Positions 19,672 to 34,876 of a stretch of 35,311 bases of DNA are shown in pieces; the stretch's first letter is position 1, and each line of letters begins with the position of its first letter. Below the pieces are notes generated by a model. That model saw nothing but the letters and a program-made list of their open reading frames with translations. It was not told the DNA's origin and ran no database searches. Origin of the DNA: a virus. The stretch lies in the IMG/VR virus record IMGVR_UViG_3300024346_009495, positions 1 through 35,311 of that record. One strand, 5' to 3'. A program made the position numbers and the translations under genes.

Positions 19672-20136
19672 TTATTCAACATTAACAATTCTAAAGTATC
19701 CCCGATGATCTACTTCACCTATACTAAATCCATTTTCAAATTTAGAATAAAATCCTGAGGTAAAAATACATCTGTTTTTATTATCAATTTCCCATTCCAT
19801 TTGAGGTGCATCAACAAAAGACCAATCTAGATCTTGATGTTTTTGAATACCTTCGCCGAAACAGAAAGAATTATTAACCTGTATCTCATTAATTTCTGGA
19901 TAATAAGTTGCCCAATAAAAAACCCTGCGGTCTGTATCCAATTCATATGGCCCAGAACCGATCTTTACTGCTCGGCCTGGATGAAGCTTAAATTCAGAAC
20001 CAAATGGGGCATGTCCAGTAAGATTTCCAGATCTCTGTGATTTTAAACTTTCTAACCAATCAGGTAATAGCTCGATTGTTATTGAGCTAGGAGTAGTGGT
20101 TTCTCCAAAATTTTCAAATAATTTGACGTGCTTCAT
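19672..20136 (-). CDS. Leader-tagged hypothetical protein
   Basis: The 154 aa protein opens with the shared leader MKHVKLFENFGETTTP, with possible protease sites after LFE (residue 8) and FGE (12). The body (17-154) is rich in aromatics and Gly, with DTDRRVFYWATYYPEINEIQ (about 67-86) and ENGFSIGEVDHRGYFRIV near the end, which fits a beta-rich fold. No family is recognised. At DNA level, the first 26 bases are nearly the same as those of the genes starting at 25521 and 32154. An AATATATAA motif lies 5 bases before the ATG. Confidence 0.65.
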   Translation of the reverse strand: MKHVKLFENFGETTTPSSITIELLPDWLESLKSQRSGNLTGHAPFGSEFKLHPGRAVKIGSGPYELDTDRRVFYWATYYPEINEIQVNNSFCFGEGIQKHQDLDWSFVDAPQMEWEIDNKNRCIFTSGFYSKFENGFSIGEVDHRGYFRIVNVE

Positions 20137-20141
20137 TTTTT

Positions 20142-20150
20142 TTATATATT
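20142..20150 (-). promoter_or_regulatory. AATATATAA motif before 20136
   Basis: Five bases before the ATG, in the 15-base gap after the gene ending at 20152. Confidence 0.4.
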
Positions 20151-20151
20151 A

Positions 20152-20688
20152 TTACCAGAATCCTGGATATGTTTTACCTCCCCAGATGTGGGCATATCTA
20201 TTAATTCTACAAGCCCAATATCCTGCTTTAGTTTTATCTTTCTTTTCTTTGCATTTATGTCTTGCTGCAAAACTTCTTCTACGTTCTGGATCACTTACTT
20301 TGGAAGACATTCCGTGAATTCCGAATTGTACTTTAATGACATTACCCTTTGGGTTCTTAACATAAACATAGAATTTCTTAGTTCCTCCTCTCATCGGATA
20401 ACCAAGTTTAACTTTCTTTCCGTGATATTCTGCTTCGTCCAATACTTCTAAAGGCATATCTAAAGGAACGTTTTTCCCCTCGTATATTCCAATTATGCCT
20501 AAATCAGTTGCTTCGAATAATAAAGATGTTTGCTTATCGATAGTAAGATTTCCAGATAGATATAATGATCTTGATTCTTTTAGAAGATCGATATGAGAAT
20601 CACTGCCAGGTCTAAAGATAGATTCTGCAATGCAAATCCTATTCTCAAGATGAAATGATAGATGCTCTGATATTTTTTCATGTGTCAT
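20152..20688 (-). CDS. Conserved phage protein with basic Cys/Trp C-terminal motif
   Basis: The 178 aa protein opens MTHEKISEHLSFHLENRICI. Its C-terminal third has the pattern RRRSFAARHKCKEKKDKTKA, then GYWACRINRYAHIWGGKTYP and GFW, which I know as a conserved ending in proteins of many large T4-like marine phages whose function is unknown. The centre is beta-rich (KKVKLGYPMRGGTKKFYVYV). Two Cys and several Arg/Lys in the ending suggest nucleic-acid or metal binding. It lies 2 bases from the next gene and lacks the shared leader, unlike its neighbours on both sides. Confidence 0.6.
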   Translation of the reverse strand: MTHEKISEHLSFHLENRICIAESIFRPGSDSHIDLLKESRSLYLSGNLTIDKQTSLLFEATDLGIIGIYEGKNVPLDMPLEVLDEAEYHGKKVKLGYPMRGGTKKFYVYVKNPKGNVIKVQFGIHGMSSKVSDPERRRSFAARHKCKEKKDKTKAGYWACRINRYAHIWGGKTYPGFW

Positions 20689-20690
20689 AA

Positions 20691-21659
20691 TTAAACCATA
20701 TTTTTAGCAACTAAATCATTTGCATAACCTTTACCGTTAGAAACATACGCAACAAAAGGACCTGAATTCATATTATTACCCAATCCTGCATTTAAATTGG
20801 AAACGGCAACAACTGCTTTATCTCTGTCATTTGGTCCCTCTAATGATATTTCAGGGTATTTGTTTTTAAATATCTTATCTCCCATTCCTGATAAGAAATA
20901 CAATGCACAAATTTGAGCTGCAACCTTAGGATCATTCAATTGCTCTGGATTAGAAACTATATCTATACCAGGAAGATCCTTCATTGCGTCTGGATTCGAA
21001 GATTTATACTTATTATAAAGATCTTGCATTCTTTGATATCCGCCCTTTCCTGTTATTCCATTAAATCCACCGCCTCGATATTTACCGCCTTCACCAGGAG
21101 CAGTATTTCCAAGGGATTGTCCCACTTTAGTTTGATATCCATAAACTAAATCCCAGAATTTTTTATCAAACTCTTCTTGACCTAATTGTCTCCACGAATT
21201 GATTTCTTCTTCGTGTCCAACAACCCTTGAGCTAAACATTTCTTTCATTCTAGGAAATCCTGTTCTGATATAAGATTCTTCTGTCCCAGGAGCCCAGCCT
21301 GTTTCATTACCAATTATTCCAATTATCGCTGCTCTTAGATTTTCATCCTTAAACCCATTTTTTTGTAATGTATCAGTCAGGATTTTAATATTAGCTTGTT
21401 TTTCTGCTTCAGTTGGAACTTTTTTATTTGAGGCAGGCGCTCCGCTACTTGACGTTCCTCTAATTGGTTCGTCAACATCGCCAAGAAAATCACCGAATCC
21501 TGAACTTTTTATTATTTCTGCTGCTTTTTTAAGCGAGTCGTAAGTTCCTTGAGCAACGCCGCTTGGATCTTTCATTGGGTCTTTTGCCGGGTCTTTCACC
21601 GGGTCCTTTTTTGTCTCTTGCTCATTTATAAATCCTGAAAATTGTTTTAGGTGCTTCAT
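20691..21659 (-). CDS. Leader-tagged GH19-like lysozyme/chitinase-fold hydrolase
   Basis: The 322 aa protein has the leader MKHLKQFSGFINEQE, then four KDP repeats (about 18-32) and a Ser/Pro linker to about residue 85. The catalytic part (90-322) matches lysozyme-superfamily endolysins: IIGIIGNETGWAPGT with E119 as likely acid, and GEGGKYRGGGFNGITGKGGY (189-208), the Y-R-G-x-G-F-x-x-[IL]-T-G-x-x-x-Y signature of GH19-like phage lysozymes. It should cut the glycan chain of peptidoglycan. There is no Sec signal, so it would need a holin, tail or head route. The tag raises the question of whether it is virion-borne rather than a lysis enzyme. Confidence 0.8.
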   Translation of the reverse strand: MKHLKQFSGFINEQETKKDPVKDPAKDPMKDPSGVAQGTYDSLKKAAEIIKSSGFGDFLGDVDEPIRGTSSSGAPASNKKVPTEAEKQANIKILTDTLQKNGFKDENLRAAIIGIIGNETGWAPGTEESYIRTGFPRMKEMFSSRVVGHEEEINSWRQLGQEEFDKKFWDLVYGYQTKVGQSLGNTAPGEGGKYRGGGFNGITGKGGYQRMQDLYNKYKSSNPDAMKDLPGIDIVSNPEQLNDPKVAAQICALYFLSGMGDKIFKNKYPEISLEGPNDRDKAVVAVSNLNAGLGNNMNSGPFVAYVSNGKGYANDLVAKNMV

Positions 21660-21660
21660 G

Positions 21661-21975
21661 TTAATTTCTAAATTTATGGGGGAACATCATTCTTAGTTCA
21701 TGCCCTTGTGGTATATCTTTTTTTCTAATTCCAAAGAGTTTCTCTTCTGGACAGGGATCTTCCCCGTTCCATTTAAAGCCATTGTTACATGCCCATGTTT
21801 TCATTCCCATATTATACGATTGACCCACAGAATAAGGGAATCTAATTCCTGAGTTATTTTCTATGGATTCTATCCTTCCTCCTTTAATAGAGAAAGTTAT
21901 CTCCCTGTTCTGTCTAGAGGTTAATGTTATATTCTCTCCGTCTGAATATGATTCGTACACTTTTATATGTTTCAT
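21661..21975 (-). CDS. Leader-tagged small protein
   Basis: The start chosen is ATG 21975 (104 aa), which opens MKHIKVYESYSDGENITL; the frame extends 8 codons upstream, but a GATATATAG motif lies in that extension. The leader has VYE at residues 6-8 as a candidate cut site. The body is beta-rich with TFSIKGGRIESIENNSGIRF, two Cys (WACNNGFKW and EDPCPEEK) and a basic end (MMFPHKFRN). No family recognised. It ends 1 base before the lysozyme gene start. Confidence 0.6.
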   Translation of the reverse strand: MKHIKVYESYSDGENITLTSRQNREITFSIKGGRIESIENNSGIRFPYSVGQSYNMGMKTWACNNGFKWNGEDPCPEEKLFGIRKKDIPQGHELRMMFPHKFRN

Positions 21976-21982
21976 GGTGATT

Positions 21983-21991
21983 CTATATATC
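21983..21991 (-). promoter_or_regulatory. GATATATAG motif before 21975
   Basis: Seven bases before the ATG. The 78-base divergent gap (21976-22053) contains no gene. Confidence 0.4.
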
Positions 21992-22053
21992 AGATACATA
22001 AATCAATCTTTTAGAAACAAAGGATCCTAAATAAACTAAGATAATAAAAAAGC

Positions 22054-22455
22054 ATGACAGAAAGAAAATATTTGCCAACTTTGGCAGAATTAGTAGACAG
22101 ATTGAGCATTTCTCAATTAAAAGAGGTATTTATTCCCCAGCATAAGGATGAGTATTCACAAGAGATTAAGGATATTGTTCATGATATTCAGGTTTTGCTA
22201 GATTCCAGCGAAAAGGTAAATGCTGATACAATTAGAGCTATAGTTGTTTTATCCCAAATGAATCTACACATATGGCACAATGAATCTAATTACAGAAAAG
22301 GAATAAAGGACGGAAATAACTTAGAACTCACCCACGGATTAAACGGAATAAGAAATACTGCAAAGAACAAAATCCAAGAAATAGTGGGCGGAAGAAAAGA
22401 CTACAAAATTGATTGCTTAGCAGCAGACTTTAGCGACTGGGAAATTAGCTGGTAA
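22054..22455 (+). CDS. Conserved phage hypothetical protein (plus-strand island)
   Basis: A 133 aa soluble, mainly helical protein starting MTERKYLPTLAELVDRLSIS. Segments such as LKEVFIPQHKDEYSQEIKDI and RAIVVLSQMNLHIWHNESNY look like conserved helices with charged faces; I recall similar proteins in T4-like cyanophages, with no known function. It is the only gene of its plus-strand island and ends 1 base before the stop of the convergent ThDP-enzyme gene. An A-rich stretch (AAGATAATAAAAAAGC) precedes the ATG. Confidence 0.6.
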   Translation: MTERKYLPTLAELVDRLSISQLKEVFIPQHKDEYSQEIKDIVHDIQVLLDSSEKVNADTIRAIVVLSQMNLHIWHNESNYRKGIKDGNNLELTHGLNGIRNTAKNKIQEIVGGRKDYKIDCLAADFSDWEISW

Positions 22456-23004
22456 TTATTGAATGTAATATAGCTCGGGGTATTCTACTATAACGTGGAT
22501 ACCCCCATTTTCATATGCATTCTTATAGATATCTTCAATATCATTCCATTTATTAAGATCATGGAAATTAATATTAGGACACATCGATTTAAATTCTGCC
22601 AAATAATTACCTCTATGTTGATGTCCAGGATCTAAAGGCTTATCTGATCCTTTTCCTAACCTAATAATCATATTAGCATCCCATTTTCCCTGGCTCATTA
22701 AATTTATCTTATCAACATGGTTTACCAATTGATTTGTTGCACAGATTAAAAAATCCCATCTAGGATAAAAAGTGATAACAAAATCTCCAGCCATTGCCAT
22801 TCCTAGCGACATTCCCATTTGGGATTCTTCCATTACCGGTACTTCGATCATCTTATCCTTTGAGACGTTACTGATTGTAGTACTCATAGGATTTCCGTGC
22901 CATAGGAGTTGTTGCCCAATAAAAACAGTATTTGGTTGTTCACCAAGAAATGTCATTGAATTGGTTAGGGCATCTTTGTAAGGTGTATATTCTGGTTGAC
23001 TCAT
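22456..23004 (-). CDS. ThDP-dependent enzyme, pyrimidine-binding (E1 beta / transketolase-type) subunit
   Basis: A 182 aa protein corresponding to the pyrimidine domain of E1beta/transketolase enzymes. The core VPVMEESQMGMSLGMAMAG carries the conserved glutamate (E59 or E60) that activates thiamine diphosphate, followed by FVITFYPRWDFLICATNQLV and NHVDKINLMSQGK. It lacks the C-terminal transketolase domain of about 130 residues present in full E1beta, so it is a minimal subunit. With the E1alpha-like protein encoded directly upstream it would form an alpha2beta2 enzyme with active sites at the interface. Likely substrate: a 2-keto acid and a sugar acceptor, judging by the neighbours (inference). 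Confidence 0.75.
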   Translation of the reverse strand: MSQPEYTPYKDALTNSMTFLGEQPNTVFIGQQLLWHGNPMSTTISNVSKDKMIEVPVMEESQMGMSLGMAMAGDFVITFYPRWDFLICATNQLVNHVDKINLMSQGKWDANMIIRLGKGSDKPLDPGHQHRGNYLAEFKSMCPNINFHDLNKWNDIEDIYKNAYENGGIHVIVEYPELYYIQ

Positions 23005-23021
23005 ATTCTTATTTTATTAAA

Positions 23022-23654
23022 TTAAAAAACTACCCATTTTCCCGTTCCGTAATGAGGCCATTCTTTTTCGTATTCATACCAGATAACATTATCCGGGATT
23101 TCTCTTTTAATTCCTCCCCAGGTTTCTATTGTTGGGGTATTAGTCGAAACGTGATTATCCTCTACAACAAATACTATTGGAAGATCTAGATTTTTAGCGT
23201 ACTTGTGCATCTCATAAAATCCGCCCGTTTCAAAAGCCATGTCTCCGACAAAACACCAAACTTTATCGTTACGATTTTCTCTTTTATTGGAAAGAGCAAT
23301 ACCAGTTGCTATAGGGATTATAGCACCAACTATGGCAGATGCGTAAAATCTTTCTTCTTGACTTACTATCGTTATTGATCTACCTGCTATGATTTCTTCT
23401 TCCAACCAAACAGGACATACACCTTTAATTAGAGCATGATAATGAGATCTCCATGTTGAAAAAACCCAATCTGTTGATCTGATTCTTTTTCCAATTTCAA
23501 TTAATTGCTCTTCGTTGCCACCACTTAAATGACCTGGACCTTTTATTTTTCCTGCTTCCCAATGATCAGCAATTAATCTTTCAAACTTTGATAAATCTTC
23601 CTTAGTGTATATCGGATCTGTAACAATAGGGTATTGTTCTAAATTTTTTATCAT
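23022..23654 (-). CDS. ThDP-dependent enzyme, pyrophosphate-binding (E1 alpha) subunit
   Basis: A 210 aa protein matching the E1alpha fold: GHLSGGNEEQLI near 41-52, STWRSHYHALIKGVC (66-80, substrate and cofactor histidines), and the ThDP/Mg motif starting GDMAFETGGFYEMHK (137-151) and ending VVEDNHVS with N167. Here the classical GDG is GDM, a variant seen in the sugar-pathway branch of this family. E2 (lipoyl) and E3 partners are absent, so it is not a pyruvate dehydrogenase complex; a stand-alone acyl-transfer or ketol enzyme is more likely. The start overlaps the stop of the RmlC-like gene by 4 bases, so the genes are coupled. Confidence 0.75.
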   Translation of the reverse strand: MIKNLEQYPIVTDPIYTKEDLSKFERLIADHWEAGKIKGPGHLSGGNEEQLIEIGKRIRSTDWVFSTWRSHYHALIKGVCPVWLEEEIIAGRSITIVSQEERFYASAIVGAIIPIATGIALSNKRENRNDKVWCFVGDMAFETGGFYEMHKYAKNLDLPIVFVVEDNHVSTNTPTIETWGGIKREIPDNVIWYEYEKEWPHYGTGKWVVF

Positions 23655-24196
23655 CTGTCTCTTTTTTGTAATATTGGTTTATCTGTTGGCCATTCCATTT
23701 GATATTCAGGATCGTTCCATTTAATTACACCCTGTTCGTCTGCATCAACATATCCATCTTTGTAAAATAGATTATAATGAAACATACAATCTGTTAAAGC
23801 ATAATGTCCATTTGCAAACCCCGGTGGAACAAGAACTTGGTTTCTATCCTTTTCGGTTATCATAAAAGATTCCCAATCCCCGTACGTTGATGATTGCTTT
23901 CTCATATCCAACACGATTAAATAGATGTCTCCAACTGCAGCTTGAACTAATTTCCAAGTCTTATTATCGTAATGTAATCCTCTTAGTACACCCCTGTATG
24001 ATTTTGAAAATCTTCCATGGATACTAATTTCATTTTTATCATAATGTATGTGTCTCATTACTGGATGTTCTTCACTATGAAACGTGGTAAATATCTCTCC
24101 CCTATATTCTCTATAGATAGAAGGGGTAAAGGTTGGAACTTCATATCCAAACTTTTTAGAAGGTGTTTCTATAAATTCGTCCCACTTGTTACTCAT
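23651..24196 (-). CDS. RmlC-like sugar epimerase/cupin
   Basis: A 181 aa protein of the dTDP-4-keto-6-deoxyhexose 3,5-epimerase fold. It has RGVLRGLHYDNKTWKLVQAA (68-87) with base H75, DIYLIVLDMRKQSSTYGDW, VPPGFANGHYALTD and FHYNLFYKDGY, and it ends near W-x-D-P-E-Y. The usual GFAHGF reads GFANGHY, a His-to-Asn change next to the active site. RmlC invert-epimerises C3 and C5 of the keto sugar; relatives act on only one position or are non-catalytic. The change and the neighbouring genes leave the exact reaction open. It lies 2 bases after the SDR gene. Confidence 0.8.
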   Translation of the reverse strand: MSNKWDEFIETPSKKFGYEVPTFTPSIYREYRGEIFTTFHSEEHPVMRHIHYDKNEISIHGRFSKSYRGVLRGLHYDNKTWKLVQAAVGDIYLIVLDMRKQSSTYGDWESFMITEKDRNQVLVPPGFANGHYALTDCMFHYNLFYKDGYVDADEQGVIKWNDPEYQMEWPTDKPILQKRDR

Positions 24197-24198
24197 TC

Positions 24199-25170
24199 TT
24201 ACATATTATTTGCATATCCTAGAGGAAATCCATTTCTGAATTCTGCACCCATTTTTGGTACGATCATTTGGTAACCCATTATTAATTCCTTTATTCCCAT
24301 ATCAATGTCCCACTTAGGAAACCAGCCGGTCGATTCAATTTTAGAATTAGATACAATATAATCTCTCTTGTCAGGATCTTCATAATAGTCATTATATGAA
24401 ACTGCAAAGTTCTTAACGTGATTTTGTATTTTTTCGAGTAACTCTTGCTTACTTAAATTTGCGGTAGTCAAACCAACATTGAAAATCTCACCCTTGTATT
24501 TCTCATAATTTTCTAGCATAAACAAGAAGACGTTTGCAACATCTTGGATGTGAATGAAGTTTCTTTTAAAACTTTTTTCAAAAACCACAATGTATTTGTC
24601 GGTAATCGCTTTATAGGTGAAATCATTAACCAATAAATCTGTTCTCATTCTTGGAGAAACACCAAATACAGTTGCTAATCTAAAGATGATAGCATCAGTC
24701 CTAGAATTTAGAAAATTTTCAGCAGAACATTTTGTTTTACCATAAATTGATATGGGATTTAAAGAAGATTCTTCGGTACATTCTGTTTGACCTATACCAA
24801 TACCATATCCGCTATTAGTATTGGGGTATAATATTTTTTTATTTTTACCTTTAGTAAATCTAACAATATTGAATATTTGTTTATAGTTAATTTCCTCAGC
24901 CAATTCAGGTTCAGCATCACATGCGGGAAACCCAACAATTGCAGCAAGGGGAATAATCGCGTCTGCCTCGTTACAAAGCCTTTCTAATAATGATTCATTC
25001 CTAACATCCCCATGAATGAATCTGAAATTGGGATTTGATGTGTAAACCAACAGGGACGTTTGATTGAATATTAATTTATCTAAAACGACAACTTCGTGAC
25101 CTGCATTTAACATCTTTCCGGTAATAACTGAACCTAAATAACCGGCTCCTCCTGTGATCAAAATTTTCAT
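24199..25170 (-). CDS. NAD-dependent sugar epimerase/dehydratase (extended SDR)
   Basis: The start chosen is ATG 25170 (323 aa; MKILITGGAGYLGSVITGKM). It has the Rossmann glycine motif GGAGYLGS (7-14), D31 for NAD(H) ribose binding, GDVRNESLLERL, PNTNSGYG with S120 and the catalytic Y143-x-x-x-K147 (SIYGKTK). R-rich and D-x-x-N-V segments in the C-terminal half bind the nucleotide sugar (FIHIQDVANVFLFMLE). Extended SDRs convert NDP-hexoses by epimerisation, dehydration or oxidation. It opens the cassette of four coupled genes going leftward (SDR, RmlC-like, E1alpha, E1beta). The frame has 5 further codons upstream, but the Rossmann start makes this one likely. Confidence 0.85.
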   Translation of the reverse strand: MKILITGGAGYLGSVITGKMLNAGHEVVVLDKLIFNQTSLLVYTSNPNFRFIHGDVRNESLLERLCNEADAIIPLAAIVGFPACDAEPELAEEINYKQIFNIVRFTKGKNKKILYPNTNSGYGIGIGQTECTEESSLNPISIYGKTKCSAENFLNSRTDAIIFRLATVFGVSPRMRTDLLVNDFTYKAITDKYIVVFEKSFKRNFIHIQDVANVFLFMLENYEKYKGEIFNVGLTTANLSKQELLEKIQNHVKNFAVSYNDYYEDPDKRDYIVSNSKIESTGWFPKWDIDMGIKELIMGYQMIVPKMGAEFRNGFPLGYANNM

Positions 25171-25234
25171 AATAATTATAGACATAAAGTATTAATGAAT
25201 TCAAAAAAATCTTCAGTATTTAGGAAACCCCCAC

Positions 25235-25260
25235 AAAAAACCCTGGATTTACCAGGGTTT
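25235..25260 (-). terminator. Rho-independent terminator
   Basis: A 9-base perfect stem (AAACCCTGG / CCAGGGTTT) with a 5-base loop and a run of six or more U on the minus strand. It lies 21 bases past the stop of the acidic leader gene and 65 bases before the SDR start. Confidence 0.9.
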
Positions 25261-25281
25261 ATAATTAGATTAAGGATTAGA

Positions 25282-25521
25282 CTATTCTTCTTCAGTTTCA
25301 CCTTCTTCCTCTTCAGTTTCTTCAGCTTCGTAATCATAAGGATCATACTCTGCTTTGAAGTCTGTAGCTTCTTCTTCTGGGGTTTCTTCTTCGTAGTCAC
25401 CAGCATATGTTTGGGCGGGTTCTTCAGAAGGATCTGTTAGATTATCAGCATCGTACATATATGATGATTCCTGCGTTTCTTTGGTTTCTGCCCAATTTTC
25501 AAATAATTTAAGATGTTTCAT
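25282..25521 (-). CDS. Leader-tagged highly acidic protein, possible prohead core component
   Basis: The 79 aa protein is the leader MKHLKLFENWAETKETQ followed by an almost wholly acidic region (EETPEEEATDFKAEYDPYDY, then E/T-rich to the end EEEEGETEEE). Candidate cut sites are LFE (residue 8) and WAE (12). T4 gp67, the small prohead core protein, is likewise about 80 aa with a strongly acidic tail, and it is cut by the prohead protease. The likeness in length, charge and leader is suggestive, not sequence homology. A GATATATAA motif 16 bases before the ATG and a terminator behind make this a stand-alone unit. Confidence 0.6.
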   Translation of the reverse strand: MKHLKLFENWAETKETQESSYMYDADNLTDPSEEPAQTYAGDYEEETPEEEATDFKAEYDPYDYEAEETEEEEGETEEE

Positions 25522-25537: not shown

Positions 25538-25546
25538 TTATATATC
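25538..25546 (-). promoter_or_regulatory. GATATATAA motif before 25521
   Basis: Sixteen bases before the ATG, reading GATATATAAATAAAATAAC on the minus strand; TATAAATA, the T4 late-promoter core, is contained in it. Confidence 0.45.
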
Positions 25547-26297: not shown

Positions 26298-26300
26298 TTA

Positions 26301-26637: not shown

Positions 26638-27456
26638 TTACCTTAAATCACCAAGGGTTTCTTTTGTTTCTGGTGATATCTTAGTATCTGTCGAAGTGTT
26701 ATTTTTTTGCGCTCCTCCTATTCCAGATAAAGCCATTTTCATTAATTCATCTCCAACCCCACCTAGTTTTTCGGAACCTACTGTTGCATCGTCTGGATAA
26801 ACATCCTGACCGGTTAGAGGCGAAAGCTTCGATGCTTCTCCAGTTAAAGCCTTAGAAATATCCGTCTCAAATTCTGGGGTTCTGCTATTTTTAAAATAAT
26901 CTATAAATCCAACCAGGTTGGTGCCATCGATTTTTCTTTTGTTAATACCTACTCTATCACCTTCACCGCTAAGCTGATCGTTGGTATTTCCCTCCATTGA
27001 AGTGAATGTTCTAGCGCTTTCGTCCACAGCAACAACAATACCTGTATGTCCTAGTCCCTTTCCTGGACGGGTCATAATAAAGATTTGTCCAGGTCTAATT
27101 AAACTAGGATTTGATTTGATTTGATCTACAGGGATCTTAGCATCAGCAGGAGCTTGCTCCCAGTGATTCATACATCCCCCGGTCTTAACCACAGTATTAG
27201 ATTTACTTAACCTTTTACAAACATCATCAAAGACATAATAAACGAATGCCATACACCAAGGAAGACCTGATGAAAGACCCACTGACTGTAGGTATTTAGT
27301 AACCTCTGGACCCTTATTGCTTCCTTTAGGTTGTTCTTTTGCGTCTTTTTGTGATGCAAGAACACCGGCAAATATTTCTCCGTCTTTAGAAGGATCGCTA
27401 AGAGAGATTTGCTGTGCTTCTTGTATAAACAAGCTAAAATTTTTAATTCTTTTCAT
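26638..27456 (-). CDS. Leader-tagged CHAP/NlpC-type cysteine hydrolase
   Basis: The 272 aa protein has the leader MKRIKNFSLFIQEAQQ; the FIQEA end closely matches the T4 capsid-targeting ending FIAEA. Residues 45-185 form a papain-like hydrolase: C68 in LPWCMAFVYYVFDD, a Cys/His-containing segment GGCMNHWEQAP, H137 in GLGHTGIVVAVDE and E155-G-N in MEGNTND. These fit CHAP or NlpC/P60 amidases that cut the peptide part of peptidoglycan. The C-terminal 80 residues are polar linkers (KLGGVGDELMKMALSGIGG). No Sec signal is present. It is the second cell-wall enzyme with the leader, besides the GH19-like one. Confidence 0.75.
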   Translation of the reverse strand: MKRIKNFSLFIQEAQQISLSDPSKDGEIFAGVLASQKDAKEQPKGSNKGPEVTKYLQSVGLSSGLPWCMAFVYYVFDDVCKRLSKSNTVVKTGGCMNHWEQAPADAKIPVDQIKSNPSLIRPGQIFIMTRPGKGLGHTGIVVAVDESARTFTSMEGNTNDQLSGEGDRVGINKRKIDGTNLVGFIDYFKNSRTPEFETDISKALTGEASKLSPLTGQDVYPDDATVGSEKLGGVGDELMKMALSGIGGAQKNNTSTDTKISPETKETLGDLR

Positions 27457-27460: not shown

Positions 27461-27469
27461 TTATATATC
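27461..27469 (-). promoter_or_regulatory. GATATATAA motif before 27456
   Basis: Four bases before the ATG, in the 60-base divergent gap to the plus-strand CAP gene; the gap has no other gene. Confidence 0.4.
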
Positions 27470-28141: not shown

Positions 28142-29425
28142 TTAGAACTTTGGACACTTAAATGAACCCCAGTTTCTTTTACTTCTAAATTTAAATATTT
28201 CTCCGAGATGAAGTTCTGGTATGGTAGGAGGTATGAAATGCGGTCTCCATTTTTTATTGCCAGTAATAGTTACAAAGAAAGCCTTCTCCTTAACTTCTAT
28301 TGGTTTTTTAGGGTCTATTTTAATTGGTTCTGGTTTAGTTTCTGCTCCTTTAACTGGTTCTATCTTTTCAGTATTATTAAAAATAATTCCAGCTTCTATT
28401 TCAACTTTTTGATATTTCTTTAGCACTTGCTTATTAGCATCAGTGGTGTCCCATTCTTCCCCCGATGTACCAGTTAGATCAGCACCGATAGGTTGAGATG
28501 CATAAGCAACTGTGGATTTTTTACCTGTGTTAGTACCTTTAGTTGATTTTTCTATCTTAGTGTCTCCATCAATTAATACACCAATCTTAGCTAATTCCTC
28601 TTTTAAATACTTAATAGCAGATTCCGCTCTAAGATCTGAAAGTTCAGCAAAGGTATGTTTCTTTTTATCCTCCGGAGAAACCCCATTTGGAATAGTAGAA
28701 CATGATGTCGTAATTTTTAGAGAATTAAGATATGATTTAGGTTTACCTTCTGGTGGATTTAATTTTGATATTGTCTCCTTAGAAGGATTTATCACATTTT
28801 CCGTTGCCCAAGTTTTAAATTTATTAGAGAGGGTCCAGCTATTAAACTCGAAGAAATCTGAGGTATCAATGTCCTGAGGAATTTCTATTTTAACTGCAGG
28901 ATATACTATCGGCGGTGTATCAGCGGACTTAGGATCAGTAGATTCTCCGGGTGCCCCTAGTATTTCATTATTGTTATAAAAATCAGAAGCATATATTTTT
29001 ATATCTTTGCCTAGATCTAATGGTGCTTTTCTATTCACTAATTCATTCTTGTAATCCCTTGGAAGCTTGTCATGTGTTGCATACACAATAAACATCGCAT
29101 ACTTTTCTGGAAATTTTTCTTTAAAGTTTTCGATTACCGTTCTTGATTCATCATCAGCAATAGCTTCTTTAACTCTTTCTTCACAATCTGTAAATCCTTC
29201 GGTGTTCATCCAATCTAAAAGACTCATATCTTTGGTTAGACCCTTCGCTAATGGATATCCATCTTTCTTGTATGAATCAAAGGATTTCATAGAGGCGAAT
29301 CCAACTTTACTTGTTCCTGAAGCGTCCTGATCATTTGCTTTGAATCCCCACACGTAGTAAGGATCTACTTGTTCGTTAATCGGATTTTCGTCATTCCATG
29401 ACTTAAATTCTACTAAATACTTCAT
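28142..29425 (-). CDS. Leader-tagged protein with weak OmpA-C-like region
   Basis: The 427 aa protein has the leader MKYLVEFKSWNDENPINEQ, with EFK/NDE/INE as possible cut points. Residues about 230-282 (YLNSLKITTSCSTIPNG, then FAELSDLRAESAIKYLKEEL) recall the OmpA C-terminal peptidoglycan-binding pattern, with strand, S-x-x-G, L-S-x-x-R-A and helix, but key residues are few. Pro/Lys/Glu-rich linkers fill 345-390, and a basic-aromatic end follows (IFKFRSKRNWGSFKCPKF). No signal peptide. If the OmpA-like reading is right, it could bind cell wall from the virion side. Low-confidence domain call, sure gene. Confidence 0.6.
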   Translation of the reverse strand: MKYLVEFKSWNDENPINEQVDPYYVWGFKANDQDASGTSKVGFASMKSFDSYKKDGYPLAKGLTKDMSLLDWMNTEGFTDCEERVKEAIADDESRTVIENFKEKFPEKYAMFIVYATHDKLPRDYKNELVNRKAPLDLGKDIKIYASDFYNNNEILGAPGESTDPKSADTPPIVYPAVKIEIPQDIDTSDFFEFNSWTLSNKFKTWATENVINPSKETISKLNPPEGKPKSYLNSLKITTSCSTIPNGVSPEDKKKHTFAELSDLRAESAIKYLKEELAKIGVLIDGDTKIEKSTKGTNTGKKSTVAYASQPIGADLTGTSGEEWDTTDANKQVLKKYQKVEIEAGIIFNNTEKIEPVKGAETKPEPIKIDPKKPIEVKEKAFFVTITGNKKWRPHFIPPTIPELHLGEIFKFRSKRNWGSFKCPKF

Positions 29426-29441
29426 GCTTTTATTATTTCAC

Positions 29442-29450
29442 TTATATATC
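29442..29450 (-). promoter_or_regulatory. GATATATAA motif before 29425
   Basis: Sixteen bases before the ATG, in the 38-base gap after the cyclophilin gene stop. Confidence 0.4.
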
Positions 29451-29463
29451 TAAATAGTATTTA

Positions 29464-29895: not shown

Positions 29896-29917
29896 ATATT
29901 TATTGTTTTATTTGTTT

Positions 29918-30019
29918 TTAAGAACTGACATAATGCATCCAGTAATAAAGAAAGATCATTAACATCACCATGATGATCAATTTAGTCTTTGGCGATATTT
30001 CTTGATTATTGTTTTCCAT
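29918..30019 (-). CDS. 33-aa single-pass membrane micro-protein
   Basis: ATG at 30019 lies inside the stop region of the upstream micro-gene (ATGGAAAACAATAA), and TAA is at 29920-29918. The product starts MENNNQEISPKTKLIIMVML and continues MIFLYYWMHYVSS: a polar N-terminus and one hydrophobic helix (about 14-31). A 14-base overlap with the gene above and close spacing to the cyclophilin gene suggest coupled translation. Function unknown. Confidence 0.55.
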   Translation of the reverse strand: MENNNQEISPKTKLIIMVMLMIFLYYWMHYVSS

Positions 30020-30170
30020 TCCCTCTATTATCGAATGTGATTTTAACAGCATCCCTTTCTAACTTGTCTAATCTCTCTTCTAATTCGTCAATGCGATCCT
30101 CCAATTCTCCAACCATGGAAAAGATTTTAAAGATAAGGACGGCAAAGAAAATGCCCATTGCTGTAAACAT
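30006..30170 (-). CDS. 54-aa membrane protein with coiled coil
   Basis: ATG at 30170 opens 54 codons ending in TAA at 30008-30006. The product starts MFTAMGIFFAVLIFKIFSMV (membrane helix) and continues with a charged heptad-like helix (ELEDRIDELEERLDKLERDA), then a polar tail (ITFDNRGNGKQ). The layout, small anchor plus coiled coil, is spanin-like or of an assembly adaptor. It overlaps the next micro-gene. No family is recognised. Confidence 0.6.
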   Translation of the reverse strand: MFTAMGIFFAVLIFKIFSMVGELEDRIDELEERLDKLERDAVKITFDNRGNGKQ

Positions 30171-30222
30171 AGAATCTAATTTCTATCTTATAGAGATGAG
30201 ATTGAAATTAATTCCATAAAGG

Positions 30223-30774
30223 TTATTGTAGAATCTGATTGCGAAGGCTGCCAGCTAGAGCATTCTGATTGGCAAAAGCATCTCGTTCCCAAGGACGATC
30301 GTTATACGGAATACCCAGGATGTCATAGCGTTCCCCCATCCATAGTACCACTGTACCCTCCGTTAGGATCAATTCTTTGTCACTATACTGAGTCAAATGG
30401 ATTAACTCATGACTTATCACTTCGATGGCGTGTTCGCGCCCTAAATCGCCATTAACACAGATCGTATAGCCATCCATCCACTCGGCGATGTAGGCTTCAA
30501 GTTCAACCCCTTCACTTTCCTGAAATCTGGTCTTAATCCTCTCGCTCATGGGCTGAATAAGTATATTGATCCCATTCATACCTAATTGTGCCATACCTAC
30601 GCTGACCACAGTGTCTAGATAGGTCCATTCGGTGGTGTTAGTGATGTCATTATTCTCAGTAAGCACAACTTGTTTATAGTAGGGTGATTTGACTGGGGTT
30701 TGAATTAACCACCAAATAAGAGCTCCTAGTAGGAGTAAGGCAGAGAGAACAAATAAGATCTTTTTCATACCCAT
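30223..30774 (-). CDS. Membrane-anchored putative metallopeptidase
   Basis: The start is placed at ATG 30774 (183 aa); a TTG lies 3 codons upstream and an ATG 2 codons downstream, so the first residues are uncertain. A membrane anchor or signal (about 4-22, KKILFVLSALLLLGALIWWL) is followed by a soluble domain that contains H122-E-x-x-H126 in VISHELIHLTQYSDKELILT, with E140-ish residues as further ligand candidates. HExxH followed by a TQYSD segment is a zinc-peptidase hallmark. It would face the periplasm. It begins just after the stop of the sulfotransferase-like gene. DNA is G+C-richer than the regional average by eye. Confidence 0.65.
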   Translation of the reverse strand: MGMKKILFVLSALLLLGALIWWLIQTPVKSPYYKQVVLTENNDITNTTEWTYLDTVVSVGMAQLGMNGINILIQPMSERIKTRFQESEGVELEAYIAEWMDGYTICVNGDLGREHAIEVISHELIHLTQYSDKELILTEGTVVLWMGERYDILGIPYNDRPWERDAFANQNALAGSLRNQILQ

Positions 30775-30779
30775 ATGTA

Positions 30780-31430
30780 TCAAATAAACTTGATTTTTTT
30801 TGCCGGGTCTTTTAAATCTGCATCCTCAATAATCACCATCTTTTTTGTCGGGTCTTTTAAATTTGTATCTCCCCCCTGCAATCTTCTTTTGGGATCAATG
30901 ACATCCAACCATTGAGGATCGGCTATCTCTAGAAACTGACAGATCCTCTGAACGTCATCACCTGAATGATAAACACCCTCGTATGAAGTAGTAATCCCAA
31001 TCTCCTTGTGTCTAGCAGCAGCAGAAAGGATAACACCATTAATACCGATTGATTCCATCTTAGTGCGGGTGATGTTATTCTCATTGGCTGCCAACCAGGC
31101 ATCATCTATAGCATAGATCACGTGGGACTCGCCAGTTTCCAGCTGTCTCACTCTACTAATAGCACAATCTCTAAGGTTGTCTCTAGTATGGAAGATAATC
31201 CTGTCAAACCCAGAGAGGTAAGACTCAAGATCAGTAAATGTGGACAGAATAATATGTGAGATGTCTTCCTTTACCACCATATTAGTGCTTGATAATGAGT
31301 CTAAAAAATCCTTGCAATCTGGCCCATTTAAAAGGGGTTCATGATACGATTTATAATCAAGCTCACTCGAAATCCAATTCAGTAGACTAAATCCCCCTGA
31401 ACGGGGATGGGTGAGGATTAGGATACGCAT
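30780..31430 (-). CDS. Sulfotransferase-like P-loop protein
   Basis: A 216 aa protein. The opening ILTHPRSGGFSLLNWISSEL (residues 5-24) matches the 5'-phosphosulfate-binding loop of PAPS-dependent sulfotransferases (H-P-R-S-G-x-x-x-L). HEPLLNGPDC at 30-39 and the segment FHTRDNLRDCAIS (80-92), with R83 and S92, resemble the 3'-phosphate site. Such enzymes move sulfate from PAPS to sugars or proteins. The C-terminal third ends with a repeat: NLKDPTKKMVIIEDADLKDP and AKKIKFI. Close matches to the family are few, so the call is by motif. A GATATATAA motif is 6 bases before the ATG. Confidence 0.6.
   Translation of the reverse strand: MRILILTHPRSGGFSLLNWISSELDYKSYHEPLLNGPDCKDFLDSLSSTNMVVKEDISHIILSTFTDLESYLSGFDRIIFHTRDNLRDCAISRVRQLETGESHVIYAIDDAWLAANENNITRTKMESIGINGVILSAAARHKEIGITTSYEGVYHSGDDVQRICQFLEIADPQWLDVIDPKRRLQGGDTNLKDPTKKMVIIEDADLKDPAKKIKFI
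30793..30869 (-). repeat. Tandem 15-codon repeat at the sulfotransferase-like C-terminus
   Basis: Two nearly identical units (30793-30823 and 30841-30869 carry GGGTCTTTTAAAT on the plus strand) encode NLKDPTKK and DLKDPAKK. They look like a recent duplication of the gene's end. The lysozyme gene (20691) has a similar KDP repeat near its start. Confidence 0.6.
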
Positions 31431-31436
31431 GATAAA

Positions 31437-31445
31437 TTATATATC
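31437..31445 (-). promoter_or_regulatory. GATATATAA motif before 31430
   Basis: Six bases before the ATG, in the 112-base gap (31431-31542) that otherwise holds a terminator and no gene. Confidence 0.4.
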
Positions 31446-31490
31446 AAAAGGTTTATCTATTTAGGGAAATGAATACATAAACGTTGAACA

Positions 31491-31523
31491 AAAAAAAAGA
31501 CCTAGCGATCAGCTAGGTCTTTT
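31491..31523 (-). terminator. Rho-independent terminator
   Basis: A 12-base perfect stem (AAAAGACCTAGC / GCTAGGTCTTTT), 5-base loop, and a run of about eight U on the minus strand. It lies 20 bases past the stop of the AAA gene. Confidence 0.9.
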
Positions 31524-31542
31524 AGAATGTATTAAAGATTAA

Positions 31543-32154
31543 CTAAGAGAGTCCGTTTACCATCACACCTTGGTTGTCCCCTGTTGACTGAACTGTAGGT
31601 ACTAATTCATAAGCAGTGAATCTGTCAGCTAAAGATCCAGAAAGCTGTTTTCCTTTTTTGTCTGATGTTGCTACTATTAACCAACCTTCAGGAAGTTTAA
31701 TATTTCCTATTCTACCTGATTGTGCTAGCTGAAGAGCACTATATAGAGTTTGATTCTCTGCTCTATTCATATCGCTCAAAACAAGAATACCAGGTCCTTC
31801 TGTAGGGAACCAAGACGGAATTGCATTTGAGGTCATGCCTTCATTATCACCTGTGTTTGTAACAGAAGGAATTCCTCTAAAATCTGCATCATCCATAGTG
31901 GAAAGATCTAGCATAAGGGATTCGACCCCGGCTTCTTCCGCTGCTGCTTTGATAATAGCATCTTTACCCATACCAGGAGATCCTATAAGCAGAATAGGCT
32001 TAACTCTACCATCACCGTTGATTTTGATGTTAAGTGCTCTTACGATTAATGCCTTAGCTTCATTTGCAGTAAGTGGAAGTGCATACTCAAGAGTACTACC
32101 AGATTCCATATCTTCGTCCTCCTGCCAGTTTTCAAACAATTTAATGTGCTTCAT
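31543..32154 (-). CDS. Leader-tagged MoxR-like AAA protein, altered catalytic motifs
   Basis: The 203 aa protein has the leader MKHIKLFENWQEDEDM, then the AAA core of MoxR-type ATPases: Walker A GSPGMGKD (58-65), a Walker B region ILVLSDMNRAE (123-133) and sensor 1 IVATSDKKGKQ, with R178 in LADRF at the expected arginine-finger place. Key residues differ: Thr/Ser after the Walker A lysine is Asp, Walker B DE is SD, and the sensor 1 Asn is Asp. It also lacks the C-terminal lid, so it is shorter than usual (about 300 aa). It may be weakly active or non-catalytic. MoxR proteins assist folding and assembly. Confidence 0.75.
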   Translation of the reverse strand: MKHIKLFENWQEDEDMESGSTLEYALPLTANEAKALIVRALNIKINGDGRVKPILLIGSPGMGKDAIIKAAAEEAGVESLMLDLSTMDDADFRGIPSVTNTGDNEGMTSNAIPSWFPTEGPGILVLSDMNRAENQTLYSALQLAQSGRIGNIKLPEGWLIVATSDKKGKQLSGSLADRFTAYELVPTVQSTGDNQGVMVNGLS

Positions 32155-32173
32155 GAAATAACGTTATTTTACT

Positions 32174-32182
32174 TTATATATC
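32174..32182 (-). promoter_or_regulatory. GATATATAA motif before 32154
   Basis: Nineteen bases before the ATG, the longest spacing of the set, followed by AGTAAAATAACG on the minus strand. Confidence 0.4.
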
Positions 32183-32202
32183 ATTTTTTTTAGAATCATA
32201 AG

Positions 32203-32625
32203 CTACCTTTTACCTTCTAGCACAACCTTTAGTCCGTTGTTTCTATCAATGTACATCCACTCACAGGAGATCAGCCCAAATTGAGAGAAATGATCTAGCA
32301 CCTCATCTGCCGAAAAACAGGAACATGAATAGATGTCAAATTGAAAGAAAGCGGGATCTTGTGCATCCCAAACGTGGATGGCTGCATGGGAAGTGGCAAG
32401 TGTAACCGTGCCTGTGATTCCCTCATTGCCTGGTTCATCCACATAGACTGAAGTTGGTCCGGCAACAACGACCATTCGAACCCTTTCAACTAGATCCTTT
32501 AGCCATTGGTTTAAGTCTTTCTCTTCCTTGGGTGGATTTTGAACATAGCCTCTAACTAGGAGGTGAAGATGATTGGGAATAAATCCCTTGTGTGTGTCTT
32601 TTTCTTGGGGTTTAGTATTTTGCAT
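32203..32625 (-). CDS. speD: S-adenosylmethionine decarboxylase-like protein
   Basis: A 140 aa protein matching the prokaryotic SpeD/SpeH fold. GITGTVTLATSHAAIHVW carries the proenzyme cleavage serine S79 with H80 and H84, and FQFDIYSCSCFSADEVLDHF carries D97 and C101, spaced like the active-site set (S63, H68, C83 in the T. maritima enzyme). The residue before the cleavage serine is Thr instead of the usual Glu, which might change self-cleavage. The enzyme makes decarboxylated SAM for spermidine synthesis; T4-like marine phages often carry speD. It lies between an AAA gene and the tandem tail genes. The DNA is G+C-richer than its neighbours by eye. Confidence 0.75.
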   Translation of the reverse strand: MQNTKPQEKDTHKGFIPNHLHLLVRGYVQNPPKEEKDLNQWLKDLVERVRMVVVAGPTSVYVDEPGNEGITGTVTLATSHAAIHVWDAQDPAFFQFDIYSCSCFSADEVLDHFSQFGLISCEWMYIDRNNGLKVVLEGKR

Positions 32626-32629
32626 GATC

Positions 32630-32638
32630 CTATATATT
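32630..32638 (-). promoter_or_regulatory. AATATATAG motif before 32625
   Basis: Four bases before the ATG. The first bases overlap the stop codon of the preceding gene. Confidence 0.4.
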
Positions 32639-33744
32639 TAGAATCCTAACTCACCTAGATCGGCTGAAACCCCTGCTGCATCCTCTGGAATTTTTTTAAG
32701 AATCTCTTGCCAAAGTCGAGGATAGTCCTTTCTAATCAAGTTCATTGTTTCATGACCTAAATTAGTTAAGTTGATTCTATCAGCCACAGCAGATTCGATA
32801 CCCTCACCTTGAGAAACCTTCTCTATAAGATCCACAGCAATTTGTCGAACAGCAATAACGTCTTTATCCATTTTCTTAAATGTCATACTGTTATCAAGTA
32901 ATTTTTCTTTAAAAACCTTACCTCCCCAGATTAAATCAGCAAGTTCTGACACTTTAGATCTCTCGCCTCCTATTTTGACACTAAAATAATCATAATCATT
33001 ATCATCAAGATCTAAACAGTTCCACGGTCTAGCCTGGATTGATACCTTTACAGGAATATCATATTTTTGATTCATATCAAGCGAATCACCTACAAACAAC
33101 TTGGTAAATAAAGATTCCTGGTTTAGTATCCAACCGGTTAGGCCTGAATATCTAAGATCAGAAGGACTTTCAAGACGATTTAGCTGAATCATGTTCACTT
33201 CAAATCCAAGAAAATCTAGGAGGAATTTCCATTTTGGAACAGCCAGAATCTCAAGTGGGTCTTCAATAGGATCTTTTATTCCCTTTTTAAGTCCCTCAAT
33301 TATTTTATCGTAGATTTCTTCTGCAGTCAGGACATTGTCTATGCACTCATCTGCTATAGAAACAATGATCTTTCTAATTTTTTTCTCCTTTTTCATAAAA
33401 GCTAAACCTAATCCATTCCTACCCATCACGAAGGATTTCCAGCACTCTCTTAGACATTCGGCTAGAGTGTTCGCATTTCCGTTCACATCTAAGACATTTA
33501 ACACCCGAGATTCATGAACAGACCACCAATTCCATTGATCCTTAGAAACTCTTTTAAAAATGTATCGAAATTGTAATCTGGTTTGGATAACTAGACGATT
33601 GGTTGAGTCTACAATGTAAGGTCCGACTAGGGAGGTTAGACTCTTGCCTTCTACGGTATTCTCCATGACATCGGTTATAAATGCCCTAAGGGTCATAGGT
33701 CTTTTAGAGGCTTCGAATAATCGAAAGGGTTGAAGATATTTCAC
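32638..33744 (-). CDS. Leader- and tail-tagged hypothetical protein 1 (GTG start)
   Basis: The 368 aa protein starts at GTG 33744 with the leader MKYLQPFRLFEASKRPM (LFE at 9-11). It ends with RLWQEILKKIPEDAAGVSAD, then LGELGF, which is shared with the next two genes upstream. The middle (17-330) is unrelated to them: a DNA/RNA-binding-like basic segment FIFKRVSKDQWNWWS type near 60-75 and helical segments (IVSIADECIDNVLTAEEIYD). No family is recognised. The GTG start is the only one among the leader genes. Confidence 0.65.
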   Translation of the reverse strand: MKYLQPFRLFEASKRPMTLRAFITDVMENTVEGKSLTSLVGPYIVDSTNRLVIQTRLQFRYIFKRVSKDQWNWWSVHESRVLNVLDVNGNANTLAECLRECWKSFVMGRNGLGLAFMKKEKKIRKIIVSIADECIDNVLTAEEIYDKIIEGLKKGIKDPIEDPLEILAVPKWKFLLDFLGFEVNMIQLNRLESPSDLRYSGLTGWILNQESLFTKLFVGDSLDMNQKYDIPVKVSIQARPWNCLDLDDNDYDYFSVKIGGERSKVSELADLIWGGKVFKEKLLDNSMTFKKMDKDVIAVRQIAVDLIEKVSQGEGIESAVADRINLTNLGHETMNLIRKDYPRLWQEILKKIPEDAAGVSADLGELGF

Positions 33745-33747
33745 TCT

Positions 33748-33756
33748 GTATATATT
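33748..33756 (-). promoter_or_regulatory. AATATATAC motif before 33744
   Basis: Three bases before the GTG; its upstream end overlaps the stop of the preceding gene. Confidence 0.35.
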
Positions 33757-34211
33757 TAGAATCCCAACTCGCCTAGATCGGCTGAGATGTGTGCCGCATC
33801 GCTAGGAATTTTTCTAATAATCTCGGACCAAATTTCGGGATGCTCATTTTTGATCAATCTCATCATATGGTGGGAAAAATCGTAGGGGTTCCCTAAATAA
33901 AAATCTTTTGCTGTGATAACTGAGTTATCTTCCATGAAAGAAATTTCAGTTTCTTCATCATTAGGGTCTTCCGGATCGGGAGGAACTATTTTTATAGTGT
34001 TTCTTTTTCCCCTGATGTTTTCAAAAAAATTAACAGCGGAGATACTGCAATCATTTTTATTGGATATAATATCAAGAGCAATAAATTCACTGGTTTCTGG
34101 ATAGTATATTCCGCTAAATGTGCACGGATCGAAATTTCCCCAGGTGAAAGAAATAGGTAGGATGTCACTATTACTGGATTCGAACAGGTGGAAAAATTTA
34201 AGGTGCTTCAT
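33756..34211 (-). CDS. Leader- and tail-tagged hypothetical protein 2
   Basis: The 151 aa protein has the leader MKHLKFFHLFESSNSD (LFE at 9-11) and ends with EIWSEIIRKIPSDAAHISAD, then LGELGF. The middle (17-110) is short and beta-rich (FTWGNFDPCTFSGIYYPETS, acidic DPEDPNDEETEIS). It is the shortest of the three tandem paralogues by ends, so it shows best which parts are shared. The gap to the next gene is 11 bases. Function unknown. Confidence 0.65.
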   Translation of the reverse strand: MKHLKFFHLFESSNSDILPISFTWGNFDPCTFSGIYYPETSEFIALDIISNKNDCSISAVNFFENIRGKRNTIKIVPPDPEDPNDEETEISFMEDNSVITAKDFYLGNPYDFSHHMMRLIKNEHPEIWSEIIRKIPSDAAHISADLGELGF

Positions 34212-34214
34212 CTT

Positions 34215-34223
34215 TTATATATT
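34215..34223 (-). promoter_or_regulatory. AATATATAA motif before 34211
   Basis: Three bases before the ATG. The preceding stop TAA gives its first base. Confidence 0.4.
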
Positions 34224-34876
34224 TAGAATCCCAACTCGCCTAGATCGGCTGAGACATCTGCACCCGTTGGATCAATCACTTTAATCACCTCCTGCCAAAG
34301 TCTAGGGGCTTTTGTTCTAACCTCATTGGCTGTCTCTGGACTCCAGTTGGCAACAAGTTCATCAACCCTATCTTTCAATAAGGGTTGAAAGATCTCAGGA
34401 AACTCGTCCATTGCACCCCAGATTTCAATGGAGGCATTAAGATGATTGATAGAGGTATTCCAAACTTTCAGGATCACTCCTAAACCCTTGCTTACTTCAA
34501 ATTGATCCATATACCATTCAACGGGTTCATCCTGATGCTCCTCACACCAATCACTATAGCCAAATGTGCACCTCATAAAATCATCATAGGTTCTTTGATG
34601 ATCTGAAGAAGGCTGATAGGCATCAACCCATTTTAGATATTCTTCCTCTTCTATCGGAGCATATTCAATGCCATCATCCTTATCAAAGCTGTTCTCATAG
34701 GCTTCCAAATAATCATCATAATCTTCGGAATCTATAACACAAGACCAAACCACAGTGTCGTTCTTACAAAGATCAGGAAGGGTGACACGTGAAATAAGTA
34801 AATCGTTGAGAGGATCCACCAAATTTATCTTGGAGGATTTGGATTCAAAAAGAGCGAATGTCTGCAGGTATTTCAT
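34223..34876 (-). CDS. Leader- and tail-tagged hypothetical protein 3
   Basis: The start chosen is ATG 34876 (217 aa) with the leader MKYLQTFALFESKSSK (LFE at 9-11); the frame extends 5 codons into the GATATATAA motif. The protein ends RLWQEVIKVIDPTGADVSAD, then LGELGF. The middle is acidic and Trp/Tyr-rich (DYLEAYENSFDKDDGIEYAP, FGYSDWCEEHQDEPVEWYMD), unlike the other two. No family recognised. It is the first of three tandem genes sharing both ends. Confidence 0.65.
   Translation of the reverse strand: MKYLQTFALFESKSSKINLVDPLNDLLISRVTLPDLCKNDTVVWSCVIDSEDYDDYLEAYENSFDKDDGIEYAPIEEEEYLKWVDAYQPSSDHQRTYDDFMRCTFGYSDWCEEHQDEPVEWYMDQFEVSKGLGVILKVWNTSINHLNASIEIWGAMDEFPEIFQPLLKDRVDELVANWSPETANEVRTKAPRLWQEVIKVIDPTGADVSADLGELGF

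Follow-up and report, generated by a model that had tools for sequence, protein, structure and literature searches.

The closest described system is that of the internal proteins of bacteriophage T4, of which IPI to IPIII carry a capsid-targeting sequence at the N-terminus. In passages of PMC9026906, targeting is ascribed to residues 4 and 7 of the T4 leader and processing to residues 8 and 10, and the T4 protease is stated to cut after L/I-X-E. IPI is described there and in parts of PMC3012670 as an inhibitor of a restriction enzyme, a precedent for anti-defence cargo. In the T4 head cluster, the portal gene (20) is followed by those of two core proteins (67, 68), the protease (21), the scaffold (22) and the capsid protein (23). 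In phiKZ-like phages (SPN3US, 201phi2-1), many inner head proteins are cut after glutamate by a gp21 relative, according to sections of PMC5694885 and PMC9026906; the SPN3US propeptides are, in a section of the former, mostly much longer than 13 residues.

Here, the virus record IMGVR_UViG_3300024346_009495 was analysed over 35,311 bases with 55 called genes. This whole stretch, probably a fragment, is referred to as the window. Ten of its minus-strand genes begin with the same leader, a 13-residue module that is common to otherwise unrelated proteins in the window and in related records. With a probability of roughly 0.8, we read this leader as a T4-like capsid-targeting propeptide in greatly enlarged use. 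Judging from its likeness to the T4 tag that loads proteins into the head, the virus probably packs a large, swappable set of helper proteins and injects it on infection.

As in T4 IPI to IPIII, the leader is a short N-terminal module starting with MK, has hydrophobic or aromatic residues at positions 4 and 7 and is placed on diverse bodies, in T4 including anti-restriction cargo. The T4 ipII and ipIII leaders end in hydrophobic-x-E-A, another likeness to the leader found here. When aligned by eye with T4 ipIII (MKTYQEFIAEA), the leader has three additional residues (E-x-F) between F7 and the cut site, and resembles the T4 sequence plus one turn. T4 has three annotated internal-protein genes, whereas the leader occurs on ∼4–25% of called genes here. 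Unlike in T4, leader genes share an upstream motif in the clade of the window, and some of their products a C-terminal tail. In comparison with phiKZ-like heads, one 13-residue module is common to unrelated proteins. Encapsulin-type cargo peptides were considered and dropped.

T4 gene 61.1 (NC_000866, 18966-19130; 54 amino acids (aa), hypothetical) begins MKTFKEFIKED and resembles the internal proteins at its start; its product may be a further capsid-targeted T4 protein.

Consensus and frequency of the leader

Gene sets of 15 related records and the window (2970 genes) were prepared with a simple in-house caller, from which both genes and starts were taken. Leaders were scored on a position matrix trained on the 15 related records without the window, with a threshold of 8 bits; for training, E was required within residues 8-15 and signal-peptide-like starts were excluded. 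The analysis covered 381 of the 482 kb of G001 and 172 of the 180 kb of G036. As the records were mostly chosen for at least one leader DNA match, the rates per genome are biased upward.

The consensus of 227 pooled leaders was M-K-H-[ILV]-K-L-F-E-x-F-[ILV]-N-E; its information content, 1.3 bits at residue 13, dropped to 0.3 bits at the next residue and ∼0.1 beyond. Scored on residues 2-10 alone, the leader was found in 271 of 2970 genes compared to 9 of 10,462 internal methionines, and therefore lies far beyond chance. In leaders selected by residues 2-10 only, E was present at residue 13 in 52% and reached at most 22% at every other residue from 9 to 24. Per record or fragment, ∼4–25% of the called genes carried the leader. 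Leader proteins of at least 100 aa (n = 227) fell into 165 families, 137 of which had a single member. In the open-licence literature, no description of this leader was recognised and no text with the searched leader letters was found.

With a leader DNA pattern, 20, 8 and 5 matches were obtained in the very large phage records LR756500, LR756504 and LR756502 (462-642 kb), for example MKYIKEYEEF, and one match each in the 735-kb LR756501 and the 635-kb LR745206.

Leader genes of the window

The initial annotation had listed ten minus-strand genes with starts from 34876 to 20136, and all ten were present, the 33744 gene starting with GTG. A profile search, which it had proposed as a check, selected 10 of 55 window genes and none of 135 internal methionines with the matrix trained without the window; the ten leaders named with a window-inclusive matrix were the same ten genes as first observed. 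The proposed pattern M-K-[HYR]-[LIV]-x-x-[FY]-x-x-[FWY] held over residues 1-10 in 10/10, all of them carrying [ILV] at residue 4 and [FY] at residue 7. Its continuation, E at residue 12, proved loose: the first E from residue 11 onward stands at residue 11 in three leaders, at 12 in three, at 13 in three and at 14 in one. The leader genes, all on the minus strand, are as follows.

19672..20136, minus strand, leader gene, MKHVKLFENFGE-T..., 154 aa, no assigned body
20691..21659, minus strand, leader gene, MKHLKQFSGFINE-Q..., 322 aa, endolysin/GH19-like body
21661..21975, minus strand, leader gene, MKHIKVYESYSD..., 104 aa, no assigned body, without hydrophobic-x-E site
25282..25521, minus strand, leader gene, MKHLKLFENWAE-T..., 79 aa, 31 aspartate or glutamate residues (D/E)
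26638..27456, minus strand, leader gene, MKRIKNFSLFIQE-A..., 272 aa, CHAP hydrolase
28142..29425, minus strand, leader gene, MKYLVEFKSWNDENPINE-Q..., 427 aa, OmpA-like label could not be verified
31543..32154, minus strand, leader gene, MKHIKLFENWQE-D..., 203 aa, AAA ATPase
32638..33744, minus strand, leader gene, MKYLQPFRLFE-A..., 368 aa, C-terminal tail SADLGELGF
33756..34211, minus strand, leader gene, MKHLKFFHLFE-S..., 151 aa, C-terminal tail SADLGELGF
34223..34876, minus strand, leader gene, MKYLQTFALFE-S..., 217 aa, C-terminal tail SADLGELGF

Predicted cleavage site

A hydrophobic-x-E ending at residue 12 or 13 was found in 140 of 271 leaders versus 170 of 2699 other N-termini; for any hydrophobic-x-E in residues 10-18, the counts were 180 of 275 leaders versus 517 of 2695 others. 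The residue-12/13 site was directly followed by A, S or G in 77 of 140 leaders, compared to ∼19% A+S+G in the background composition. In the window, nine of ten leaders have a hydrophobic-x-E within residues 8-20 (FGE, INE, WAE, IQE, INE at residue 18, WQE and three times LFE), the 21975 leader being without a site. As to the T4-type cut pattern claimed for these leaders, L/I-x-E is present in six of ten (LFE at residue 11 in three, INE and IQE at residue 13, INE at residue 18), three have F or W at position P3 and one has no site. Cleavage of the leader is likely but variable.

The leader might instead be a permanent docking helix, which would address proteins to the virion or scaffold and be left uncut or be cut only in some of them. 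As such a helix would allow, no hydrophobic-x-E ends at residue 12 or 13 in half of the leaders, and one window leader is without any; conservation, however, stops right after E13, and the excess of A/S/G after the site points to a cut. In addition, all 30 distinct protease N-termini from portal loci have [LIV]-x-E in their first 22 residues, a count made with no control set. We consider a permanent docking helix unlikely.

Head genes of the relatives

A gp21-type protease was sought, as the initial annotation had proposed. Neither the window nor any of its five nearest relatives yielded one; these relatives, all of them fragments, are G037 (which shares 43 of the 55 window genes at 75% identity), G046, G057, G017 and G056. 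The protease was present in more distant relatives. Of these, both G036 and G048 encode a portal, a protease and a capsid protein, and G009 has a portal gene. The gp21 protease, gp23 capsid protein and gp20 portal were found together in G004, G006, G010, G012, G014, G015, G036 and G048. Of the large records with the leader DNA pattern (n = 22), 11 encode a protease of the gp21 family and 12 a capsid protein of the gp23 family. In 33 further records of at least 50 kb, a gp21-family protease was found in 11, nine of these over the curated cut-off, so that overall the family is present in 22 of 55 records of at least 50 kb holding the pattern.

The head cluster of the relatives has the order of the T4 20-67-68-21-22-23 cluster: an acidic core protein is encoded after the portal, and the gp21-family protease precedes the gp23-family capsid protein. 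G010 and G012 have a small acidic protein with the leader between portal and protease, where T4 has 67/68, and the capsid gene is next; in G006, a member of the same acidic family, again with leader, occupies this position. The protein between portal and protease starts with MKKLIKTFEQFIFEA in G004, one residue longer, and with MKIYNTFESFIKEA in G015; these are shifted or shorter variants. The gp21-type protease frame measures ∼600–740 aa in G010, G012, G014, G015, G004 and G001, with a long extension in comparison to T4 that may be a fused scaffold.

Loci were also collected by the portal alone (best 80 of 540), and in these the leader was found on 103 of 1210 genes. For a second head type, a leader-like start was seen in 38 of the 68 distinct genes that follow the capsid gene versus 67 of 720 others (Fisher 7e-19, only a guide, as the loose pattern was written after inspecting the loci and the sequences are related). 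The third gene after the capsid gene of this type usually encodes an acidic protein (22-29% D/E), which recalls the acidic leader protein of the window (31 of 79 residues D/E), and three opposite-strand genes lie between portal and protease, unlike in T4. The acidic protein at 25282..25521 is a candidate prohead core protein. Head genes of the window's own clade were not recovered: no relative was obtained with the AAA protein as query, and the best 80 of 540 portal-profile loci included none of this clade.

It could also be that the leader sends proteins to another site, such as the membrane, the tail or a replication body, and that its carriers in the head cluster are incidental. The lysozyme-like and CHAP bodies would suit the envelope or tail, but core-like genes with the leader stand between the portal and protease genes or follow the capsid gene, and none of seven tail sheath homologues has the leader; we regard this as very improbable.

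Exchange of the leader between homologues

For 34 leader bodies, a leaderless homologue was aligned from the start of the body, some of these homologues having sub-threshold leaders. One example lies in the window:

20152..20688, minus strand, leaderless member of the phrog_7595 family

This family is without leader in the window and in Flavobacterium phage immuto (NC_055915), and has the leader in G009, G036, G010 and G015. Similarly, a 230-aa body that is without leader in G006 carries one in G010, G012 and G015, and one small body starts with MKHIKLFEEFINE in G015 and with MKKSQLRQIIKE in immuto. Immuto has T4-like portal, protease and capsid genes and homologues of six window genes, three above 50% identity. 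It differs in its leader: none of its 224 called genes reaches the threshold (best 3.9 bits), and four genes, one of them between portal and protease, share a short start of their own, MKKS-x-[LI].... Of the genes with an immuto homologue (n = 153), nine carry the leader, all within three families; in this matched set, homologues of DnaB, NrdA, ThyA, terminase, PhoH and tail sheath have no leader. Judged from these alignments, homologous bodies gain, lose or swap the leader.

A second repeated start, MKKQILSEQF-x-RMQ-x-LAGIITES, is present on two immuto genes.

Spread of the leader as a DNA cassette had been suggested from three leaders (20136, 25521 and 32154) described as nearly identical in DNA. 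These agree pairwise at only 24, 24 and 25 of 30 bases, and codon identity inside the window leaders, 0.53, is just what codon usage predicts (0.53); the likeness is therefore at the protein level and the suggestion was rejected for the window. In other records, codon identity ranged from 0.03 below to 0.10 above expectation, some showing a small excess (e.g., 0.67 vs 0.58 in G006), and old or occasional copying of the leader DNA may have occurred.

Upstream motif

When the window is taken together with its five nearest relatives, 57 of 73 leader genes have [GA]ATATATA in the 45 bases upstream, vs 40 of 498 other genes (Fisher 2e-37); for the window alone, the counts are 9 of 10 leader genes vs 7 of 45 others. 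None of six control words of similar make-up was comparable. The motifs of the window were placed by hand as follows.

20143..20150, minus strand, AATATATA motif before 20136 gene
21984..21991, minus strand, GATATATA motif before 21975 gene
25539..25546, minus strand, GATATATA motif before 25521 gene
27462..27469, minus strand, GATATATA motif before 27456 gene
29443..29450, minus strand, GATATATA motif before 29425 gene
32175..32182, minus strand, GATATATA motif before 32154 gene
33749..33756, minus strand, AATATATA motif before 33744 gene
34216..34223, minus strand, AATATATA motif before 34211 gene, on stop codon of upstream gene
34882..34889, minus strand, GATATATA motif before 34876 gene

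In six relatives with a contiguous head cluster, the motif precedes the portal gene in 6/6, the protease gene in 6/6 (together the 12/12 figure) and the capsid gene in 0/6; it also precedes the G009 portal gene. Of all head genes identified with profiles (n = 35; portal, protease, capsid and the gene before the portal), 13 have the motif, compared to 283 of 2160 other non-leader genes. In the portal loci (best 80 of 540), it was found before 56 of 77 portal genes, 20 of 38 protease genes, 11 of 36 capsid genes and 63 of 102 leader genes; for genes that do not belong to the head families, a set that contains the leader genes, the count was 294 of 1034. Enrichment on leader genes was weak in G001 (9/44 vs 27/487) and in G036/G009 (19/42 vs 101/391), and none was seen in the G004/G006 group (9/47 vs 79/560).

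ATATATA may act in transcription or in translation; the motif often lies only ∼6–16 bases from the start codon, which would allow a translational role. The T4 late promoter TATAAATA, considered as the shared element, was not clearly enriched, the enriched word being ATATATA. That the shared start is an expression element of upstream motif and first codons boosting late translation, and not an address, appears highly improbable: window-clade leader genes do share ATATATA, often at this distance, but codons within the leader are about as diverse as codon usage predicts while the residues are conserved, so that it is mainly the protein that is under selection. Moreover, the motif stands before portal and protease genes without leader in six relatives.

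Cargo bodies and C-terminal tail

In the window, 30 of 55 genes were scanned against PHROGs and ten against Pfam. The body types named in the initial annotation were recovered for CHAP and AAA (Pfam 1.2e-9 and 3e-4), for the GH19-like lysozyme, where 20691-21659 matches an endolysin family (PHROG 1.5e-13), and for the acidic mini-protein. The 427-aa protein labelled OmpA-like gave no sequence match in Pfam, PHROG, phage records or PDB, and its AlphaFold model had a mean predicted local distance difference test (pLDDT) score of 33.

A domain scan covered 95 of the 165 leader-protein families, with one protein each and two from the window. Among the Pfam families matched (25 listed of 40) were NUDIX, HD, AAA, Clp-type ATPase, zeta-toxin-like, GNAT and ATP-grasp, and the same proteins gave Tad3 (8.5e-19) and Acb1 (2e-7). 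Acb1-family matches, all weak, were found in 8 of 45 records, with the leader on five.

Bodies had been said to differ completely, which does not hold for the 34876, 34211 and 33744 proteins with their common tail ending SADLGELGF. In 16 gene sets, the ending ADLG[ED]LGF was found on ten proteins, all from the clade of the window; nine carry the leader and the tenth begins near the end of its contig. Two of the three window junctions, made up of tail, stop codon and ATATATA, are identical over ∼39 bases (32638-34891; counted by eye). LGE within the tail fits the cut motif, which we mention only as a suggestion. T4 Alt is also cut at both ends, as given in a passage of PMC9026906.

Elsewhere in the window, a run of secreted or lipoprotein-like genes (5529-11799) is conserved in G017 and partly in immuto, where genes of this type neighbour annotated cohesin-domain and C-type lectin proteins. 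At 22456-25185, two adjacent genes resemble, by eye, halves of one thiamine-diphosphate enzyme, and sugar-epimerase-like genes adjoin them.

Weighing of the evidence

The initial interpretation is supported in part: capsid targeting by the leader has strong genomic support, and spread as a DNA cassette is not supported. Capsid targeting is supported because the leader is found on head-cluster proteins of relatives, because its upstream motif is shared with the portal and protease genes of six relatives, because the leader ends abruptly after a frequent hydrophobic-x-E, and because homologous bodies swap or lose it.

Several observations weigh against it. Genes for gp21, gp23 and the portal were looked for without success in the window and in the five fragments that are its nearest relatives. 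In G004 and G015, the core proteins stay under the leader threshold; in G014, no gene was called in the portal-protease interval, and its leader gene lies between protease and capsid gene. About half of the leaders have no hydrophobic-x-E ending at residue 12 or 13, and in the window one leader is without cut site and three have F or W at P3. The association with the motif is strong in the clade of the window only: the portal and protease genes of G001, G036 and G048 lack the motif within 45 bases, and in G010-like records no enrichment was seen (11/61 leader genes vs 89/650 others). Lysozyme-like, CHAP and Clp-type ATPase bodies are odd cargo. Tad3-family matches occur in 4 of 45 records with the leader on one (G004), the match in G046, from the clade of the window, being without leader; of the eight Acb1 matches, three are under the curated cut-off, one of these with leader, and those of G006 and G040 resemble near-copies. 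Finally, T4 ipI, ipII and ipIII score -4.6, -11.9 and -11.2 on the leader matrix; with scores below zero and a spacing off by three residues, homology to the T4 leader is therefore not shown.

The helix, packaging, cleavage and injection are inferred, as is the presence of the same head system in the window's own phage. The leader would be made as part of each protein, and the hydrophobic or aromatic residues 4, 7 and 10, forming one face of a short helix, would bind the scaffold core of the prohead, by which the tagged protein would be carried into the prohead. A gp21-type protease would then cut at the hydrophobic-x-E at or near the leader end, present in approximately half to two thirds of the copies, and the freed body would remain among the DNA until its injection at infection. 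In this way, one genome could give the same address to many unrelated and fast-changing cargo proteins, among them enzymes and, for some relatives, proteins of anti-defence.

Implications

More broadly, the sequences may reflect a general system for protein delivery in a large group of T4-like phages whose hosts are probably Bacteroidota and whose genomes extend into the hundreds-of-kilobase class. We give this wider picture an even chance. It would comprise a 13-residue head address on ten to forty exchangeable cargo proteins per genome, a common late-type signal in the clade of the window, cargo that disarms CBASS- and Thoeris-type immunity from injection on, and some cargo with a C-terminal tag bearing its own L-x-E site; addresses would be lineage-specific, and orthologous cargo would change its address between lineages.

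If the capsid-targeting reading is right, the 13-residue motif would allow the predicted head cargo of many uncultured large phages to be read from sequence alone, and the internal-protein idea of T4, with its three annotated genes, would extend to ∼4–25% of the called genes in these records and fragments. Otherwise uncharacterised genes would then become candidates for early-acting, injected proteins of host takeover and anti-defence.

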